Assembly (NCBI GenBank): GCA_955652455.1
Contig: CATPBU010000123.1
Coordinates: forward strand, 1-15,608
Reading direction: 5' to 3'
From: Candidatus Dormiibacterota bacterium
GTDB taxonomy: Bacteria; Chloroflexota; Dormibacteria; UBA8260
DNA length: 15,608 bases
Position 1 is the first letter of the stretch. Every line of letters begins with the position of its first letter. The notes under the pieces were generated by a model, which saw only the letters and a list, made by a program, of their open reading frames with translations, was not told the DNA's origin and did no database searches. The translations under genes and the position numbers were made by a program. Of this stretch, positions 3,063-8,772 are shown piece by piece.

Positions 3063-3428
3063 CTACCGAATCAGCGAGACAGCGCCGCGTGCCGCCTCGG
3101 ACATTGCCGGGTCGAGCTGGTAGAAGGCCCAGATCCCGCGTTTGAAGCTGGTCACCAGGCCGGCCTCCCTCAGCCTGGCGAGGTGGTGGCTGATGGTCGG
3201 CTGACCGAGGTCGAAAGCGGCGGTGAAGTCGCACACACAGACGGGGTCAGGCGCGGCCGCGAGGATGTGCACCATCTGAACGCGGGTGGGGTCGGCGAGT
3301 GCGCGGTGCACGCCGGCCAACTCAATGGCGCGCGCGTCCGGCAGCGGCGGCGCCACCGCCTGGCAGCAGCCCTTGACACGCTCGGGGACGCCGATCTTCT
3401 CGGTGAGACGCAGCGCAGCCGGATTCAC
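3063..3428 (-). CDS. arsR: ArsR/SmtB-family arsenic-responsive repressor
   Basis: A 121-residue winged-helix repressor that should bind the ars operator and release it on binding trivalent arsenic. The core HRALADPTRVQMVHILAAAP leads into VCVCDFTAAFDLGQPTISHH (about residues 63-82), the recognition-helix region with the CxCD metal motif of arsenic-sensing ArsR (Cys64, Cys66). A further vicinal pair, Cys21-Cys22, sits near the N-terminus, as in ArsR types that use N-terminal cysteines for As(III). The GTG start at 3428 is chosen because it overlaps the stop of the upstream acetyltransferase in a GTGA junction, indicating translational coupling. Longer in-frame extensions run back into the acetyltransferase gene and are unlikely. 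Probable targets are the two inverted repeats between the arsN1-like gene and the cysteine-rich peptide gene. Confidence 0.9.
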   Translation of the reverse strand: MNPAALRLTEKIGVPERVKGCCQAVAPPLPDARAIELAGVHRALADPTRVQMVHILAAAPDPVCVCDFTAAFDLGQPTISHHLARLREAGLVTSFKRGIWAFYQLDPAMSEAARGAVSLIR

Positions 3429-3931
3429 GGCTTGCGCCGCTCCATGAACACGACGTCGCGCCAGCTGCCGTCGAACCTTCCGAGGCGTTCGCGAATCCCC
3501 ACGATGCGGAAACCACAACGCCGATGGAGGTCGATGCTCACCGCGTTCTCGGGAAAGATCCCCGTCTGGATCGTCCAGATGTCATCGGCATCCGCGCTGC
3601 TGATCACCGCCTCGAGCAACCGCCTGCCGACACCCTGGCCACGCGCCTCGGAGCTCACGTACACGCTGTCCTCGGCAACGCCCGCATAGGCGCAGCGATC
3701 GGACACCGGGGCCAGGGCGACCCATCCAATCACTCTGCCCTCGCGACGCGCCACGAAGCGGTGGTCGGCGAGATGAGAGACGTTCCAACGTGCCCAGTCG
3801 GGCGGCTCGGTTTCGAAGGTTGCGTTCCCGGAGGCGATACCCGCGGCGTAGATGGCGCGAACGGCCGGCCAGTCCTCGGCACGCATCGGTTCGATGTCGA
3901 CGGCGGTCGCCGGGCGGGCGGCCAGGTTCAT
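3425..3931 (-). CDS. arsN1: GNAT acetyltransferase, ArsN1/phosphinothricin acetyltransferase-like
   Basis: A 168-residue N-acetyltransferase using acetyl-CoA. Segment GIASGNATFETEPPDW (31-46) is typical of the phosphinothricin/arsinothricin acetyltransferase group. The acetyl-CoA pyrophosphate loop is ARGQGVGRRLLEA (96-108), and FPENAVSIDLHRRCGF (126-141) is the standard C-terminal GNAT motif. ArsN1 enzymes acetylate the organoarsenical antibiotic arsinothricin, and close relatives act on phosphinothricin or methionine sulfoximine. Sequence alone does not separate these, and the ars context favours an arsenic role. ATG at 3931 is chosen because a near-consensus TATACT lies 7 bases upstream on the minus strand, fitting a leaderless mRNA. 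The longer frame would run through the divergent promoter region. First gene of the arsN1-arsR arm; its last codon overlaps the arsR start. Confidence 0.8.
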   Translation of the reverse strand: MNLAARPATAVDIEPMRAEDWPAVRAIYAAGIASGNATFETEPPDWARWNVSHLADHRFVARREGRVIGWVALAPVSDRCAYAGVAEDSVYVSSEARGQGVGRRLLEAVISSADADDIWTIQTGIFPENAVSIDLHRRCGFRIVGIRERLGRFDGSWRDVVFMERRKP

Positions 3932-3938
3932 CCGGCAG

Positions 3939-3967
3939 AGTATACCCATTGACAGGCGTCGATGGAA
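3939..3967 (-). promoter_or_regulatory. Promoter of the arsN1-arsR arm
   Basis: On the minus strand, TTCCAT (3962-3967), a 17-base spacer and TATACT (3939-3944) form a sigma-70-like promoter with a strong -10. The -10 ends 7 bases before the arsN1 ATG, so transcription would begin at or one base from the start codon. The promoter overlaps the divergent one on the other strand. Confidence 0.6.
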
Positions 3968-3978
3968 GGCGCTACCAT
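3949..3978 (+). promoter_or_regulatory. Promoter of the cysteine-rich peptide-arsI-arsC arm
   Basis: A perfect TTGACA (3949-3954), an 18-base spacer and TACCAT (3973-3978) on the plus strand. The inferred start of transcription is near 3985, just ahead of inverted repeat 3991-4006. The -35 lies inside the spacer of the opposite promoter, so the two polymerases would compete. Confidence 0.6.
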
Positions 3979-3980
3979 CG
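3960..3980. promoter_or_regulatory. Inverted repeat CGATGG-N9-CCATCG over both ars promoters
   Basis: Perfect 6-base arms at 3960-3965 and 3975-3980. The left arm covers most of the -35 of the minus-strand promoter and the right arm overlaps the -10 of the plus-strand promoter. A protein bound here could block both arms. It shares the ATCG core with the downstream repeat, so it may be a second ArsR site, but the spacing differs. Confidence 0.4.
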
Positions 3981-3990
3981 TGGGCAATAG

Positions 3991-4006
3991 ATCGACGTTC
4001 ATCGAT
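3991..4006. promoter_or_regulatory. Putative ArsR operator ATCGA-N6-TCGAT
   Basis: The palindrome ATCGACGTTCATCGAT lies about +7 to +22 relative to the predicted plus-strand transcription start and directly before the Shine-Dalgarno of the peptide gene. ArsR-family operators are commonly AT-flanked inverted repeats with ATC/GAT-like arms. Position and symmetry both fit repression of the arsI-arsC arm. Confidence 0.6.
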
Positions 4007-4018
4007 AGGAGGTCTGCG

Positions 4019-4072
4019 ATGCCGTGTGACTGCCCGTGTGGAACGTGGCCCTGTGGATGCGGGTGCTGCTGA
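4019..4072 (+). CDS. 17-residue cysteine-rich peptide, first gene of the ars plus-strand arm (unrecognised)
   Basis: The frame reads MPCDCPCGTWPCGCGCC followed by TGA: 7 of 17 residues are cysteine, spaced CxCxCx4CxCxCC, with no His, Lys or Arg. AGGAGG (4007-4012) stands six bases before the ATG, the best Shine-Dalgarno in the locus. The gene sits directly behind the predicted ars promoter and operator. The stop is one base before the arsI ATG, which has no clear Shine-Dalgarno of its own, so arsI translation is probably coupled to it. I know of no family to assign. The cysteine pattern resembles metallothionein-like metal or As(III) chelation. Alternatives are a cysteine-rich leader peptide that only couples or senses translation, or chance. 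The promoter, operator, ribosome site, stop-start junction and composition together make a real gene likely; function is inference. Confidence 0.7.
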   Translation: MPCDCPCGTWPCGCGCC

Positions 4073-4073
4073 C

Positions 4074-4511
4074 ATGTCCCGAGTGCAACTGGCACTGAAC
4101 GTCGGCGACATCGATGCAGCCGTCCACTTCTACGAGAAGCTGTTTGCGGTGGCGCCGGCAAAACGACGGCCGGGATACGCCAATTTCATCGTCGCGGAAC
4201 CGCCGCTCAAGCTCGTCCTGTTCGAGAATCCCGCTCATGCCGGCACCCTCAATCACCTCGGTGTCGAGGTCGAGTCGACAGGCGACGTGGTAGCGGCCAC
4301 ACGCCGGCTGGCTGCGCAGGGTCTTGCCACCGAGGTGCAGGACGGTGTGGCGTGCTGTCACGCGCTGCAGGACAAGGTGTGGGTGAGCGGCGCGGACACG
4401 CGATGGGAGGTGTACACAGTGCTCGCCGACGCGCAGACGGCTCCGTGTGACTTCTCGGCCGAGGGCTCGAAGGACGCGACGCCGCACCAGGGAGCGTGTT
4501 GCGCGAGCTGA
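4074..4511 (+). CDS. arsI: ArsI/CadI-family organoarsenical C-As lyase (VOC-fold dioxygenase)
   Basis: ArsI cleaves the carbon-arsenic bond of trivalent organoarsenicals such as MAs(III) using non-heme Fe(II) and oxygen, releasing As(III). The same family includes mycobacterial CadI. The 145-residue product begins MSRVQLALNVGDIDAAVHFY and has the hallmark PAKRRPGYANFIVAEPPLKL. Candidate metal ligands are Gln5, His61 (LNHLGVEVE) and Glu112 (RWEVYTVL), matching the Gln/His/Glu set described for ArsI. The substrate-binding vicinal pair is Cys94-Cys95 in ACCHALQDKVWV. The C-terminus has an additional Cys142-Cys143. The ATG at 4074 is one base after the stop of the cysteine-rich peptide; an upstream extension of this frame to 3852 crosses the promoter and is rejected. 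arsC begins six bases after its stop. Confidence 0.92.
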   Translation: MSRVQLALNVGDIDAAVHFYEKLFAVAPAKRRPGYANFIVAEPPLKLVLFENPAHAGTLNHLGVEVESTGDVVAATRRLAAQGLATEVQDGVACCHALQDKVWVSGADTRWEVYTVLADAQTAPCDFSAEGSKDATPHQGACCAS

Positions 4512-4517
4512 CCTGAC

Positions 4518-4944
4518 GTGAACGAGATATCCAAGCCGACGGTGCTCTTTGTCTGCGTGCACAACGCGGGGCGGTCCCAGATGGCCGCCGCCCTGCTCGA
4601 GCACCACGCCGGCGGGTCGGTGGCCGTTCGTTCGGCCGGATCGGAACCGGCCGACAGGCTCAACCCCGCGGTGGTCGCCGCAATGGAGGAATTGGGCATC
4701 GACATCTCCAGGGAGTTCCCCAAACCGCTGACCGACGAGGCCGTCGCATCGGCGGACGTGGTCATCACCATGGGTTGCGGAGATGCCTGTCCCTACTACG
4801 CGGGCAGGCGCTATCTGGGACTGGGACCTCGACGATCCGGCGGGACAGTCTCTGGCTGCCGTCCGTCGGATCCGCGATGACATCGACGTGCGGGTCAGGG
4901 AGCTGCTCGAAGAATTGAGTGACAGCGCGGTCGGCAGCGGCTAG
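4518..4944 (+). pseudogene. arsC: Arsenate reductase (LMW-phosphatase type, mycothiol-dependent-like), one-base frameshift
   Basis: Reduces As(V) to As(III) through a low-molecular-weight tyrosine phosphatase fold. The P-loop CVHNAGRS gives C-x5-R (Cys13, Arg19), and VVITMGCGDACPYY follows. The CVHNAGRSQMA form is that of arsenate-mycothiol transferases and thioredoxin-linked ArsC of Gram-positives. GTG at 4518 is the start, six bases after arsI, without a clear ribosome site. After RRYL the frame slips. Removing one G from 4817-4819 restores DWDLDDPAGQSLAAVRRIRD and a natural end at 4942-4944, 141 residues in all. As written, the product would be about 120 residues with a wrong tail and might be inactive. 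The extra base is a candidate sequencing error. Last visible gene of the plus-strand ars arm; it converges on the secreted-protein gene with four bases between stops. Confidence 0.85.
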
Positions 4945-4965
4945 GTGATCACGACCAGAAGCCGC
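4937..4965. terminator. Weak bidirectional hairpin over convergent stops
   Basis: Arms GCGGCT (4937-4942) and AGCCGC (4960-4965) pair across a 17-base loop spanning the arsC and secreted-protein stops. Six base pairs without a U-tract is weak, but no other terminator is visible between these convergent genes. Confidence 0.2.
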
Positions 4966-7900
4966 AGACGTCGATGATCACGTCGACACGCCCGGACGGG
5001 TTGAAGAAGCTGATCGACCCGGCATTGCCAAGTTTGCCCAGCAGCATGTTCGAGGCAACCTCGCCCGGGACCCAGTTGAGATCGGAGCTCGTCGGTCGCC
5101 CGGTTCCGAGCGGGTAGACCGTCAGGAAGCTGGACCCGGTCGCATTCGCCACGGTGACGTTGCCCGCGAGCGCGGCGGTGTTGGCGGGGAGGCCGGCGGT
5201 TGTCGCGATCGATGTCGAGTCAACACTTCCCGCCCCGAGGGTCATGCCGGCCAGCGGTTGACCGGATCCCGCGCGGGTGTCGACCACACGGGTGGGACCG
5301 ATGGGTGTGAAGCGGAAGCCGGTGGCCTGGGGGTTGCTTCCGTCGGTGAACCAGCCGCTGACGTCGACGACGACGTCAACGCTCCCCCCGTGGTTGTAGA
5401 TTGCCACCTTGCCATCCGCGCCGAGCGGGACGATGACCCGGTTGGGCACCACCTGGCGGGCCAGGAAGTTGAGGTTCGAAGCCAGCGGCTGTGAGGCGTT
5501 CGACGGGTAGGCGGTCAGGAAGCTGGCTGCAGTCGCGTCGACCGCGGTCACGTTGAGGATCACCGCGGACGCCCCGTTGGCAGGCACCCCACCCGCGCCC
5601 GCGACTTGGACCATCAGCGTGGAACCCGTGCGCAGCGAGGCGCCGGAATTCGGCTGACCGGATCCTGCACGCGTGTCGGTCACCCGGGCGGGGACCAATG
5701 AGTTGTACAACCCAGCGGGGCCACTGCCAGCCTCGAAATAGCCCTCGAGGTCAACGACGACATCAGTGCGACCGGCATGGTTGAAGAAGCTCACCGCACC
5801 GTTGACGCCGATCGGCACTGTGACCAGGTTGGCCACCGTCTGACCGGCTGCGAAGTTGAGGTTGGATGCCAGGGGCACGCCGGCGCCACCTGGGTACACG
5901 GTGAGGTACGACGCCGCGGTCGCGTTGGTGACGGTCACGTTGAAGACGGCGGCGCTCGCATCAGACGGGACGCTGTGGATCCCGACGACGGGGAGCGCCG
6001 CGGTCTGGCCGGTGCCCAGAGAATTGCCCGCCAGGGGCAACCCTGACCCGGCGCGACTGTCGGCGACCCGGACCGGCGTCAGGGGATGGTAGACGCCGGC
6101 ACTGCCCTGGACCAGCACAGCCAGGCCGTTCTGACCGGTGGCCGACTCGGTGGCGATCAGCGTACAGGTCGCATCTGTGGTTGACGCCCTGAAGGTGGTC
6201 GAGGCGTGCCCGGCCGAATCGGCCGTGACATCAGTCGGGTTCACCGTGCCGCAGGTGCCCGACCGACTGTAGGTCGCGAAGTGGACCGCGGCGCCACTGA
6301 CCGCCAGGTGTTGCGCGGACTGGACGACGGCGGTGACAGTCGAGCTGCTCACACCGTCGTTGGGAATGTGCGCTGGGGACACGGTCACGGTGACGCTGTT
6401 CGCCGCCGCGTTGGAGGACTGGGCGTTGCCTTGGATACAGCCGCGTCCGGTGGCGGCGTACGCCGCGTTGCTGAACTCCTCCTGGGTGTAGTACCTGCCC
6501 GAGCCGATCAGCTGGTTGTACTGAGTGGTCTGCGGCTTGCTCGCATCCGTGGACCCCAGAGGAGCGCCGAAGAGATTGGCGCACTCGTCGCCGATCTCGT
6601 TGCCCGCGCTGTCTGTCCAGGCGTTTCCGACCGGGTTGGTGATCGCCTCGCTGAGCTGGTGGCTCAGTGTGTCGATGGCACCGTCGGCGATTGGATCACC
6701 GTTTGGAGACTGGCCCGTGGTGCATGCTCCGGCCGTCGGGTAGGCCACCACCGCGTAGAGAACCGTGCCGCCGGCATGCGCGTAACTGCTGTGGTATCCG
6801 CAGTACGAGGACGCCGAGCACGAGGTGGTGCTGGAGCAGGTCTCAACGCCCGGCGGCAGGAAGAGGACGTAGAGGTGGGAAAGGTCGAGCGGTGGCGAGG
6901 AGCCCTGCGCGTAGATGATGTTGGTGACCTCGTTCTGGATCTGAAGGTCACTCAGACACGTCGCGTATCCGGGGTCAGGGGCGCATCCAGCGCCAGGCGA
7001 CGCCGCGGAGTCTGATAGGCGACCTGCGAAGGTGAACGGAGCGGTCGTCGGTGGGCTGCCGCCGTACCGCGGGTCGCTCCCGTACACGTTGGCCGCTGGA
7101 CTGTTCGATGCAACGTTGGTCAGATAGCCATCGACGATATTCGCGTAGGTGGATGAGAACGCGGTGCTCCCCGACCAGTAGAGCGAGTTCACCGTGGCGG
7201 TTCCCATCTCCGGACCGCCGTGGTTCAGCAATGGGGGCGCGCAGGTGGAGCAGACCCGGGTTTCACCGGCAGTGCTGGGTGCGAAACTTGCCGCCAGCTC
7301 GAGCCAGGAAACGTCGGGGTAGTAGTAGAGGCCGTTGGCGTACGACGGATTGCCCATCGACTCGCTCCAGTTGGAGACGTTGATCCGCCCAGTGCCGGGG
7401 CCGCCATCGTTTTCCTCGATGACTGTGATGTAGCCATTGCCGGTCGACAGGTTCACGTGCGAAACGTCGCTGACGACGGCGGTGTGTCCGGCTGGAGCCG
7501 CGTTGGGATTGGCGGCGCCACCCGACAGGCTGACGACGTCGCCGGGTGCGGGAAGGCTGCCGGCGTAGGGTGTTCCAACCGCGATGGATGGGAAACGGGC
7601 ATGGTTGTTGGCAACGAACACGCCTCCGTTGCCAGGCGCGGCCTGGATCCCATACACCTCCCACATGAAGCGCGTGCTCAACTCGACGCATTGGAAGTCC
7701 GCCTCGAAGGGGTCGTTGCTCCACCCGGTGTTCAGGGTGGGGCCGCAGGCGAACACGTTGGCGTACGAGGGACCGAGGTTGTAACCATGCACGGTCGTGC
7801 CGCCGACCACGCCGGACACCGACCCACAGAAGCCGCAGCCGCTGCCCACGCCGGCCGGCAGACCGGCGGGGACGCTGGCCGTCCTGAAGTCGCGGGTACC

Positions 7901-8017
7901 CGCAGGTGTCGATGGCGGGCCGGCTGCCGAACCATTGAGTGGCGCGAACATCCCGACCAGCGAGGCCAGGCTGGCGACAACCGCGAACGCACGCAGCGAG
8001 CGGCGCGTTGACGTCAT
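4949..8017 (-). CDS. Secreted multidomain protein: CHAP, Exordium-like, Ig-like and three C-terminal repeats
   Basis: A 1022-residue exported protein. Residues 1-32 (MTSTRRSLRAF, a hydrophobic stretch, then NGSAA) form a signal peptide. About 90-205 is a CHAP-like cysteine amidase/peptidase domain, with FQCVELSTRFMWEVYGI (Cys110) and GHTAVVSDV (His178), the usual pair for cutting peptidoglycan peptides. About 260-530 resembles Exordium/phosphate-induced proteins, with YANIVDGYL and SHQLSEAITNPVGNAW followed by EIGDECANLFG. About 540-637 is a bacterial Ig-like (Big1-type) domain. Three ~120-residue repeats close the protein, and no sortase motif or membrane anchor follows. ATG at 8017 is preferred because it begins directly with the signal peptide; a TTG at 8062 would add 15 unusual residues. 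No strong Shine-Dalgarno is seen. Role is probably cell-wall or surface-matrix related; specific substrate unknown. Confidence 0.8.
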   Translation of the reverse strand: MTSTRRSLRAFAVVASLASLVGMFAPLNGSAAGPPSTPAGTRDFRTASVPAGLPAGVGSGCGFCGSVSGVVGGTTVHGYNLGPSYANVFACGPTLNTGWSNDPFEADFQCVELSTRFMWEVYGIQAAPGNGGVFVANNHARFPSIAVGTPYAGSLPAPGDVVSLSGGAANPNAAPAGHTAVVSDVSHVNLSTGNGYITVIEENDGGPGTGRINVSNWSESMGNPSYANGLYYYPDVSWLELAASFAPSTAGETRVCSTCAPPLLNHGGPEMGTATVNSLYWSGSTAFSSTYANIVDGYLTNVASNSPAANVYGSDPRYGGSPPTTAPFTFAGRLSDSAASPGAGCAPDPGYATCLSDLQIQNEVTNIIYAQGSSPPLDLSHLYVLFLPPGVETCSSTTSCSASSYCGYHSSYAHAGGTVLYAVVAYPTAGACTTGQSPNGDPIADGAIDTLSHQLSEAITNPVGNAWTDSAGNEIGDECANLFGAPLGSTDASKPQTTQYNQLIGSGRYYTQEEFSNAAYAATGRGCIQGNAQSSNAAANSVTVTVSPAHIPNDGVSSSTVTAVVQSAQHLAVSGAAVHFATYSRSGTCGTVNPTDVTADSAGHASTTFRASTTDATCTLIATESATGQNGLAVLVQGSAGVYHPLTPVRVADSRAGSGLPLAGNSLGTGQTAALPVVGIHSVPSDASAAVFNVTVTNATAASYLTVYPGGAGVPLASNLNFAAGQTVANLVTVPIGVNGAVSFFNHAGRTDVVVDLEGYFEAGSGPAGLYNSLVPARVTDTRAGSGQPNSGASLRTGSTLMVQVAGAGGVPANGASAVILNVTAVDATAASFLTAYPSNASQPLASNLNFLARQVVPNRVIVPLGADGKVAIYNHGGSVDVVVDVSGWFTDGSNPQATGFRFTPIGPTRVVDTRAGSGQPLAGMTLGAGSVDSTSIATTAGLPANTAALAGNVTVANATGSSFLTVYPLGTGRPTSSDLNWVPGEVASNMLLGKLGNAGSISFFNPSGRVDVIIDVCGFWS
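4955..6091 (-). repeat. Three tandem ~120-codon repeats inside the secreted protein
   Basis: Units at about 5729-6091, 5348-5707 and 4955-5314. Each opens with VRVxDSRAGSG or similar (VADSRAGSG, VTDTRAGSG, VVDTRAGSG), continues with NVTxxxATxxSxLTxYP, then SxLNxxxxxxxxNxxxxxLGxxGxxxxxN (one variant with PIG), and ends with DVVVDxxGxF or DVIIDVCGFW. The repeats have diverged, so they are old duplications. Such repeats are common at the C-termini of secreted proteins in actinobacteria and Chloroflexota-like bacteria; a surface-attachment role is inferred. Confidence 0.85.
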
Positions 8018-8052
8018 GGGTGCGGAAAGCACAGAGAAGATCACCGTGGGCG

Positions 8053-8078
8053 CAATTGACAAGGGAACGCGTCAATTG
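8053..8078. promoter_or_regulatory. Inverted repeat CAATTGAC-N10-GTCAATTG upstream of the secreted protein
   Basis: Perfect 8-base arms at 8053-8060 and 8071-8078, 36-61 bases before the ATG of the secreted protein. The arms contain TTGACA/TTGACG-like -35 elements on the two strands but no matching -10 was found at normal distance. A two-fold symmetric protein operator is the simplest reading. The rest of the 8018-8187 gap shows only the GC hairpin listed separately. Confidence 0.45.
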
Positions 8079-8187: not shown

Positions 8188-8772
8188 CTACTTCTTGGCG
8201 GCCTGGTAGTAGGGGTTCGCCCCCTGGGCATGATCGGTGGTATCACGCACCTCGCGGATGTCCGGAAAGCTCTCGAGGATGGCCGCGCGCACGCCCTGCC
8301 CCAAAGTGACCGCCGCCATGCCGCAGCCCTGGCAGCCGCCGCCCATATGGATGAACGCGACTCCGTCAACGACGTCGAGGAGGTCGATGTGGCCGCCGTG
8401 CATGGCCACCGAGGGATTGATCTCGTCGTCGAGGAGGCGCTGAACGGCCTCGGCGAGCGGCTCTAGCCAGAGGGGGTTGGGGTTCTCCACGCGCACCGCG
8501 CCGCCGGGAAGATGGGCGTCCAGGGTGATCCCATCGAGGTACGGCGCTGACGCGAGGGGGACGTGAAGCTGGATGCCGGATGGGCCGGAGAACACCAGGT
8601 CGCCCTGTTGCTCCTCGCCCGGGGTCACCAGTTGCATGTCGTAGACGAACGCGCCGTTCTCCCGGCCGGTGATGGCAATGCGCAGACCTGCATTGGATTG
8701 CTTGCGATTGGCGCGGACCTCGGCGATGCGGGTCACCGCCGCCGGTGTCGCGCTGACCCGAGGTTGCTTCAT
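8188..8772 (-). CDS. nfuA: NfuA-type Fe-S cluster carrier (degenerate HesB domain plus NifU C-terminal domain)
   Basis: Carries and delivers [4Fe-4S] clusters to apoproteins. Of 194 residues, about 1-100 form an A-type (HesB/IscA-like) domain that lacks the family's cluster cysteines, as in NfuA. About 105-180 is the NifU C-terminal domain with AMHGGHIDLLDV and the cluster-binding CQGC motif in GGGCQGCGMAAVTL. Length and domain order match NfuA of E. coli and many high-GC bacteria. ATG at 8772 opens 17 bases from the divergent ATP-grasp gene. The minus-strand hexamer GACACT, six bases before the ATG, is only a weak -10. It is followed by a GC-rich hairpin. Confidence 0.93.
   Translation of the reverse strand: MKQPRVSATPAAVTRIAEVRANRKQSNAGLRIAITGRENGAFVYDMQLVTPGEEQQGDLVFSGPSGIQLHVPLASAPYLDGITLDAHLPGGAVRVENPNPLWLEPLAEAVQRLLDDEINPSVAMHGGHIDLLDVVDGVAFIHMGGGCQGCGMAAVTLGQGVRAAILESFPDIREVRDTTDHAQGANPYYQAAKK

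Follow-up and report, generated by a model that had tools for sequence, protein, structure and literature searches.

The window, that is, the whole stretch of DNA analysed here (15,608 nucleotides), has a very short ORF on the forward strand at positions 4019–4072, running from an ATG at 4019 to a TGA at 4070–4072. Its translation, MPCDCPCGTWPCGCGCC, is a candidate micro-metallothionein-like peptide of 17 residues, seven of which are cysteine; CxC occurs four times and CC once, and histidine is absent. A single base, C, lies between the TGA and the ATG (4074) of the next gene, arsI, of the ArsI/CadI family (4074–4511, forward strand; 176.6 bits to NF041414, cut-off 116). The peptide ORF has a Shine-Dalgarno sequence, AGGAGG (4007–4012, forward strand), six bases before its start codon, with a duplex energy of −9.7 kcal/mol. 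The arsI gene has no strong Shine-Dalgarno sequence of its own, the best upstream duplex being −3.1 kcal/mol. Further upstream lies a putative forward-strand promoter, TTGACA-N18-TACCAT (3949–3978), with TTGACA at 3949–3954, an 18-base spacer and TACCAT at 3973–3978, in a region that was aligned for eight loci. A putative downstream operator, ATCGA-N6-TCGAT (3991–4006), has a matching element in the relatives, and an upstream copy with one mismatch, ATTGA-N6-TCGAT (3948–3963), overlaps the −35 box. The first-pass annotation, made from the letters alone, had described the peptide, the AGGAGG, the promoter, an operator and the one-base gap to arsI, and all of them were borne out on the sequence. 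The peptide gene is called from its frame, its relatives, its Shine-Dalgarno sequence and its codon changes.

Two divergent genes lie on the other side of the promoter. One encodes an ArsR/SmtB-family repressor (arsR, 3063–3428, reverse strand; 82.3 bits to NF033788, cut-off 55), and the other an arsN1-like GNAT acetyltransferase (3425–3931, reverse strand; 62.4 bits to PF00583, cut-off 20.7), which reaches 142.6 bits with the ArsN1a model NF040503, under its cut-off of 170. Downstream of arsI is an arsC-type arsenate reductase gene (4518–4880, forward strand; 65.4 bits to PF01451, residues 9–88), whose frame is apparently broken near 4.8 kb; the NCBIfam arsC models match it to residue 91 only, below cut-off. 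The remainder of this protein (4518–4930) seems to run on in another frame, owing to either a sequencing indel or a true break. By eye, an aldehyde dehydrogenase-like frame (PF00171; 1249–3005, reverse strand) is also apparently split over two frames near 1.88 kb, which suggests a second sign of indels in the window beside the arsC break. A reverse-strand ORF of 1037 codons (4949–8062) has an N-terminal part that looks CHAP-like by eye and is perhaps a secreted or surface protein. The closest named relatives of arsI are found in Candidatus Dormiibacterota MAGs.

A match to the downstream operator starts 28–32 bases 5′ of the peptide start in all 15 peptide-first loci tested, and the upstream operator is matched in 13 of the 15 (not in L102 and L134). 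The short start at 4019 is preferred because of this position of the downstream operator; longer in-frame starts exist at 3962 and 3980 and are less likely, since the distance from the operator to the short start is nearly constant. An arsR gene is present in the window and at L109, L112 and L113. Thus, a metal-type regulator gene and an operator element accompany the peptide gene, and binding of the regulator to this element is predicted. At L088, TCTAT replaces the TCGAT of the other loci in both operator copies, as though the two followed a single repressor. The operator stretch GACGTTCA (3994–4001) is complementary by eye to TGAACGTC (4096–4103) within the arsI codons; the same is seen in some relatives and not in L002 or L015, and is probably due to chance.

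How often would such a frame arise by chance? The whole window was dinucleotide-shuffled 100 times and read on both strands, and no shuffle had any frame of 10–25 codons with at least seven cysteines. Among frames of 10–40 codons, all 100 shuffles together gave two with seven cysteines, 15 with six and 64 with five. In the window itself, the sole seven-cysteine frame of 10–40 codons is the peptide frame, readable from the starts at 3962, 3980 and 4019, and one other frame of this length, at 8764, has five cysteines.

Is the short ORF common before arsI? A search of 110 Dormibacteria genomes (the class of L002) gave 13 arsI matches, of which 12 are clear and one (L094, 43%) is partial and was not taken as arsI; L088 and L102 were included despite one stop codon within the matched stretch. 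A frame of 16–19 codons ending 1–7 bases before arsI was found at 11 of the 12 clear loci, and it has at least four cysteines at 10 of them. The first-pass annotation had named the lack of a conserved cysteine-rich frame upstream of related arsI genes as a refutation, and its proposal therefore stands on this point. The gap between the stop codon and arsI is 1–2 bases at 10 of the 11 loci with the frame, as it is in the window, and seven bases at L101. The remaining clear locus, L100, has arsI without the peptide frame and with a Shine-Dalgarno sequence directly before arsI. At L004, the frame and the coupling have been kept and the cysteines are down to two; the other 11 of the 12 peptides compared have 4–8. 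The consensus of the peptides is M-P-C-D-C-P-C-G-x-C-P-C-x-C-G-C. In a wider set, the best 80 of 555 confirmed arsI loci, seven loci are from the class (L001–L006 and L015), and six of these have a cysteine-rich frame 1–2 bases before arsI, the seventh being L004 with its two cysteines.

The codon changes were compared in six relatives (L088, L101, L103, L109, L112 and L113) over the gap-free codons 2–14, the others having been dropped for gaps. The 15 pairs, which are not independent of one another, have 74 synonymous and 24 nonsynonymous differences, giving a pN/pS of 0.085. Between the window and L103, codons 2–9 have six synonymous differences, all at the third position, and no nonsynonymous one; past codon 9 the residues and the length diverge. 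In a subgroup of L001, L003 and L004, 13 codons were compared, with 9 differences at the first codon position, 10 at the second and 12 at the third. This subgroup shows no clear constraint, and two of its members have lost cysteines. The bias towards synonymous change anticipated in the first-pass annotation is thus seen in the six relatives and is missing, as a clear third-position bias, from the subgroup of three. Judged from these codon changes, the peptide frame is a conserved gene, not merely conserved DNA.

The starts of the peptide ORFs have a median Shine-Dalgarno duplex of −9.15 kcal/mol. For arsI, the median is −2.8 kcal/mol behind a peptide (n=12) and −8.0 kcal/mol without one (n=73), and the Mann-Whitney p value of this contrast is 1.9e-6, uncorrected for kinship. 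The peptide has the stronger site at 11 of the 12 loci; the exception is L003, which has a strong arsI site too. Four loci are absent from this comparison: L023 (Ns), L016 and L038 (with no start codon where the match lies) and L091. In short, arsI behind the peptide has mostly lost its own Shine-Dalgarno sequence. Because the peptide has a strong site and arsI a weak one, these sequences point to stop-start coupling of the two ORFs. This coupling may be a role that the frame has in the arsI loci in addition to the function of the peptide, and, judging from L004, it may persist after cysteines are lost.

It was found that the peptide gene also occurs beside arsM. A profile of 12 peptides matched 18 of the 110 class genomes at E≤1, and 11 were credited: in eight the match is an arsI copy already known, and the other three have no arsI match. 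Three of the known copies (G002, G005 and G007) escape the profile (A2), so that absences in the profile searches are weak evidence. In the three genomes without an arsI match, the peptide ORF either stands in front of arsM with the frames overlapping (L112 and L113) or lies behind arsM and is followed by a terminator-like hairpin of 14 pairs (L109). An arsM gene scores over the cut-off in 72 of the 110 genomes, and 30 arsM loci were scanned for cysteine-rich short frames by criteria set after the peptides were known. Five of them have such a frame: besides the three above, L134 has a 35-codon frame before arsM, and L152 has one of 11 codons that overlaps the end of arsM. The other 25 have no peptide by these criteria. 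By the same criteria, 62 class loci (224,486 bases, both strands), picked for an arsI, arsM or profile match and consisting for most of their length of other sequence, gave 24 hits, which fall at 15 distinct places; 14 of these adjoin arsI or arsM, and the remaining one is L116. The weak profile matches L114, L116–L122 and L155–L157 were dropped as chance after they were read in frame, and L161–L163 were dropped likewise because no such motif was found there. As a separate observation, many of the arsM-like matches of about 196–224 bits in the class (e.g. G246, G348 and G034) have one in-frame TGA, which is in line with the selenoprotein ArsM models in NCBIfam.

The phylum of L002's class, which I take to be Chloroflexota, includes further classes, since its genomes number over 400 and the class accounts for 110. 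In a second class, MRAFEVCDCPCGHCPCDCPGCGC (L154) and MRAASDGCDCPCGQCPCDCPGCCGG (L160) lie directly after, or overlap, metal-type MerR genes. When 400 genomes were searched, L154 was matched at E 0.021, which is a weak match when taken alone, and L160 was found at E 1.1e-4 with L154 as the query. Over 15 codons, the two have nine third-position differences, of which one alters an amino acid and eight are silent. MerR-linked peptides were found in two of the 47 genomes of this class. Their MerR neighbours score best with the CueR, CadR and MerR models, all under the cut-offs. In both loci (L154, 1492–2158; L160, 1489–2392; reverse strands), the MerR gene, nearest to the CueR/CadR models, is followed by a cysteine-rich peptide of 23–25 residues, and this pair is possibly a one-gene metal response. 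A terminator-like hairpin was credited behind the L109 and L154 peptides only; a hairpin at L152 was not called a terminator by the scan. Among such short cysteine-rich peptides, likeness could also be due to convergence instead of homology.

The first-pass annotation had looked to actinobacteria and their relatives for further copies, and this expectation failed. At the 73 non-class loci among the best 80 of 555, mostly from actinobacteria and cyanobacteria by title and including three without a clear start (L016, L023 and L038), no short peptide ends at arsI; ten have some frame with at least three cysteines within 250 bases upstream, none of the peptide's form. The peptide frame is also missing at L089–L091, three arsI loci of the phylum's other classes. 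The profile search gave no match at E≤0.1 in nine actinobacterial genomes, and the lone match at E≤0.05 in 247 genomes of L007's class, L158, lies inside a 931-codon frame and was not credited. On these results, an actinobacterial peptide family was rejected. Instead of actinobacteria, the carriers found belong to Dormibacteria and to one other class of their phylum.

Does the peptide gene leave a trace in public ArsI proteins? An N-terminal extension of eight amino acids or more was matched in 32 of the 120 ArsI relatives listed (8000 scored), the remaining 88 being uninformative on this point. Of these extensions, 31 end in E or D just ahead of the usual start, and Ala or Val make up four or more of their last 16 residues; P0071 has an extension of another form, which the pattern misses. 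This composition suggests that the 31 extensions are CxC codons read in another frame. It had been claimed that a gene of this size escapes ordinary gene callers, and the peptide gene proved to be a real, conserved gene of such a size. Gene callers may thus both miss a conserved gene and run other predictions through its DNA.

What does the peptide do? The reading that I favour, and regard as probable, is that ribosomes make it as a micro-metallothionein or arsenic(III) carrier, with ArsR controlling its gene and its binding being predicted. The ORF would be the first gene of an ArsR-controlled arsenic operon, with a 17-residue metallothionein-like product. By analogy with the ArsR family, As(III) would lift ArsR off the two operators. 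Ribosomes would load at the AGGAGG, make the peptide, stop at the TGA and restart on arsI one base on, and the strengths of the Shine-Dalgarno sequences predict a peptide output at least equal to that of ArsI. The CxC-spaced thiols would hold As(III) or methylarsenite and so buffer arsenic in its toxic trivalent form; more broadly, the ligand of this thiol peptide may be trivalent arsenic or some other soft metal. The peptide may also carry trivalent arsenic to ArsI or, in the relatives, to ArsM, enzymes whose substrates are As(III) or methylarsenite. The first-pass annotation had left the choice between a chelator and a cysteine-rich leader; the chelator fits best, and the leader-only alternative is disfavoured because relatives follow arsM (L109 and L152) or MerR genes (L154 and L160).

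An unlikely alternative is that the frame is a cis-acting leader that gates arsI translation, its Cys codons letting the ribosomes respond to the supply of cysteine or to arsenic bound by nascent thiols, the peptide itself having no job. The upstream, coupled position in the class arsI loci, the loss of most arsI Shine-Dalgarno sequences and the retention of the frame at L004 after most cysteines had gone all agree with it. In the mycobacterial poly-Cys attenuators an RNA structure controls the next gene; here, however, eight leaders fold no better than their shuffles (z −0.73 to 2.12; seven of them, from relatives, were cut at a fixed offset and start at differing places within the operator). 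Covariation contributes an unfavourable term of +1.3, although 7 of the 31 predicted pairs have a two-sided change. Rfam has no match at E≤1 in positions 3800–4600 of the window. A poly-Cys attenuator or an RNA-structure leader was therefore left without support from folding, consensus folding or Rfam. Moreover, Asp or Glu, Pro and Gly recur between the cysteines, runs of cysteine are few, and the copies behind arsM, one with its terminator-like hairpin, and behind MerR genes fit poorly with gating. Precedents for such leaders do exist: cysteine-rich regulatory short frames are known in mycobacteria (in passages of PMC9094748), and so is a copper-sensing nascent protein, CutF (in passages of PMC9973294).

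It is improbable that the frame is a translational coupler only, for which any short frame would suffice and the cysteine content would be historical. The close spacing of the stop codon and the arsI start, the two cysteines of L004 and the lack of silent bias in its subgroup are what this explanation would give, whereas the amino-acid constraint in the six other relatives and the copies behind arsM or MerR genes with no gene directly following are not. I give a similarly small chance to a peptide that handles another soft metal (Cu, Cd, Zn or Hg) and sits in the arsenic operon by co-selection: the best models of the L154 and L160 regulators lean this way, all below cut-off, and the distinct scan places in the class, nearly all adjoining arsI or arsM, lean the other. 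A chance frame or an artefact is very improbable; the two apparent frame breaks noticed by eye elsewhere in the window suggest indel errors, yet independent genomes show silent bias and the shuffles gave no comparable frame. There was no support for the peptide standing in for an absent cellular thiol, as a GCS2-family ligase is present in 54 of the 110 class genomes. This ligase is also present in 12 of the 16 genomes credited with the peptide. In the MshC search, none of the 110 genomes was over the cut-off, and all 110 and all 14 controls matched below it.

A broader proposal can be put forward tentatively, with more doubt than confidence: the micro-metallothionein or arsenic(III) carrier favoured here might be a gene-encoded counterpart of phytochelatins, a thiol peptide of 16–20 residues that is co-made with ArsI or ArsM and hands over trivalent arsenic to the enzyme, within a wider CDCPCGxCPC family serving MerR metal responses in another class of the phylum. 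If this proposal is true, the peptide would be among the smallest natural metallothioneins and, within the searches made, the first with a link to arsenic enzymes. Should it bind As(III), it would be a new part for arsenic resistance in the literature searched, a peptide dedicated to chelating or carrying arsenic alongside the enzymes, and it would push down the smallest size known for a working natural metallothionein.

Full-text literature searches, which covered few subscription papers, gave no such peptide among the matches listed, and a search with the motif gave only an unrelated match. Pfam has no family at E≤1 for the L112, L113, L134 and L154 peptides (at least 20 amino acids; the window peptide is too short), and no PDB chain was matched by profile A3 at E≤1. 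If the peptide binds metal, it is metallothionein-like in its working, and by its sequence it is outside the described metallothionein families. SmtA is about 56 residues in length; unlike it, the window peptide has 17 residues and no histidine, belongs to an arsenic operon and gave no sequence match. According to passages of PMC8790569, SmtA/SmtB and NmtA/AzuR are bacterial metallothioneins under ArsR/SmtB repressors, and the peptide resembles SmtA and NmtA as a small cysteine-rich protein, with predicted metal binding, beside a repressor of the same family. Passages of PMC7558416 give SmtA a zinc-finger fold and describe MymT of Mycobacterium tuberculosis, which is likewise the cysteine-rich product of an unannotated small frame; MymT, however, is a copper protein of 4.9 kDa, and the peptide here is about one third of its size and is tied to arsI or arsM.

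The mycobacterial cysteine-responsive poly-Cys attenuators (Canestrari 2020, as cited in passages of PMC9094748 and PMC13236596) are like the arsI loci in having a short cysteine-rich frame just upstream of a gene. They differ in being leaderless, according to the cited title, whereas the frame here has a strong Shine-Dalgarno sequence and spaced cysteines; no RNA structure was found for it, and it has the copies behind arsM and MerR genes. CutF is similar in that a cysteine-bearing product is translated just before the gene it serves, and passages of PMC9973294 describe it as an exported protein acting through a stem-loop. The peptide locus has no sign of export or a stem-loop; by eye, no hydrophobic stretch was seen in the 17 residues. 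Phytochelatins and EC20 are also short, with cysteines alternating with acidic or small residues (passages of PMC4611968). In the same passages, EC20 is ribosome-made, its surface display raised the arsenic resistance of E. coli, and its removal from a combined construct improved growth. Phytochelatins are made by an enzyme and EC20 was engineered, whereas the peptide described here would be natural and genetically encoded.
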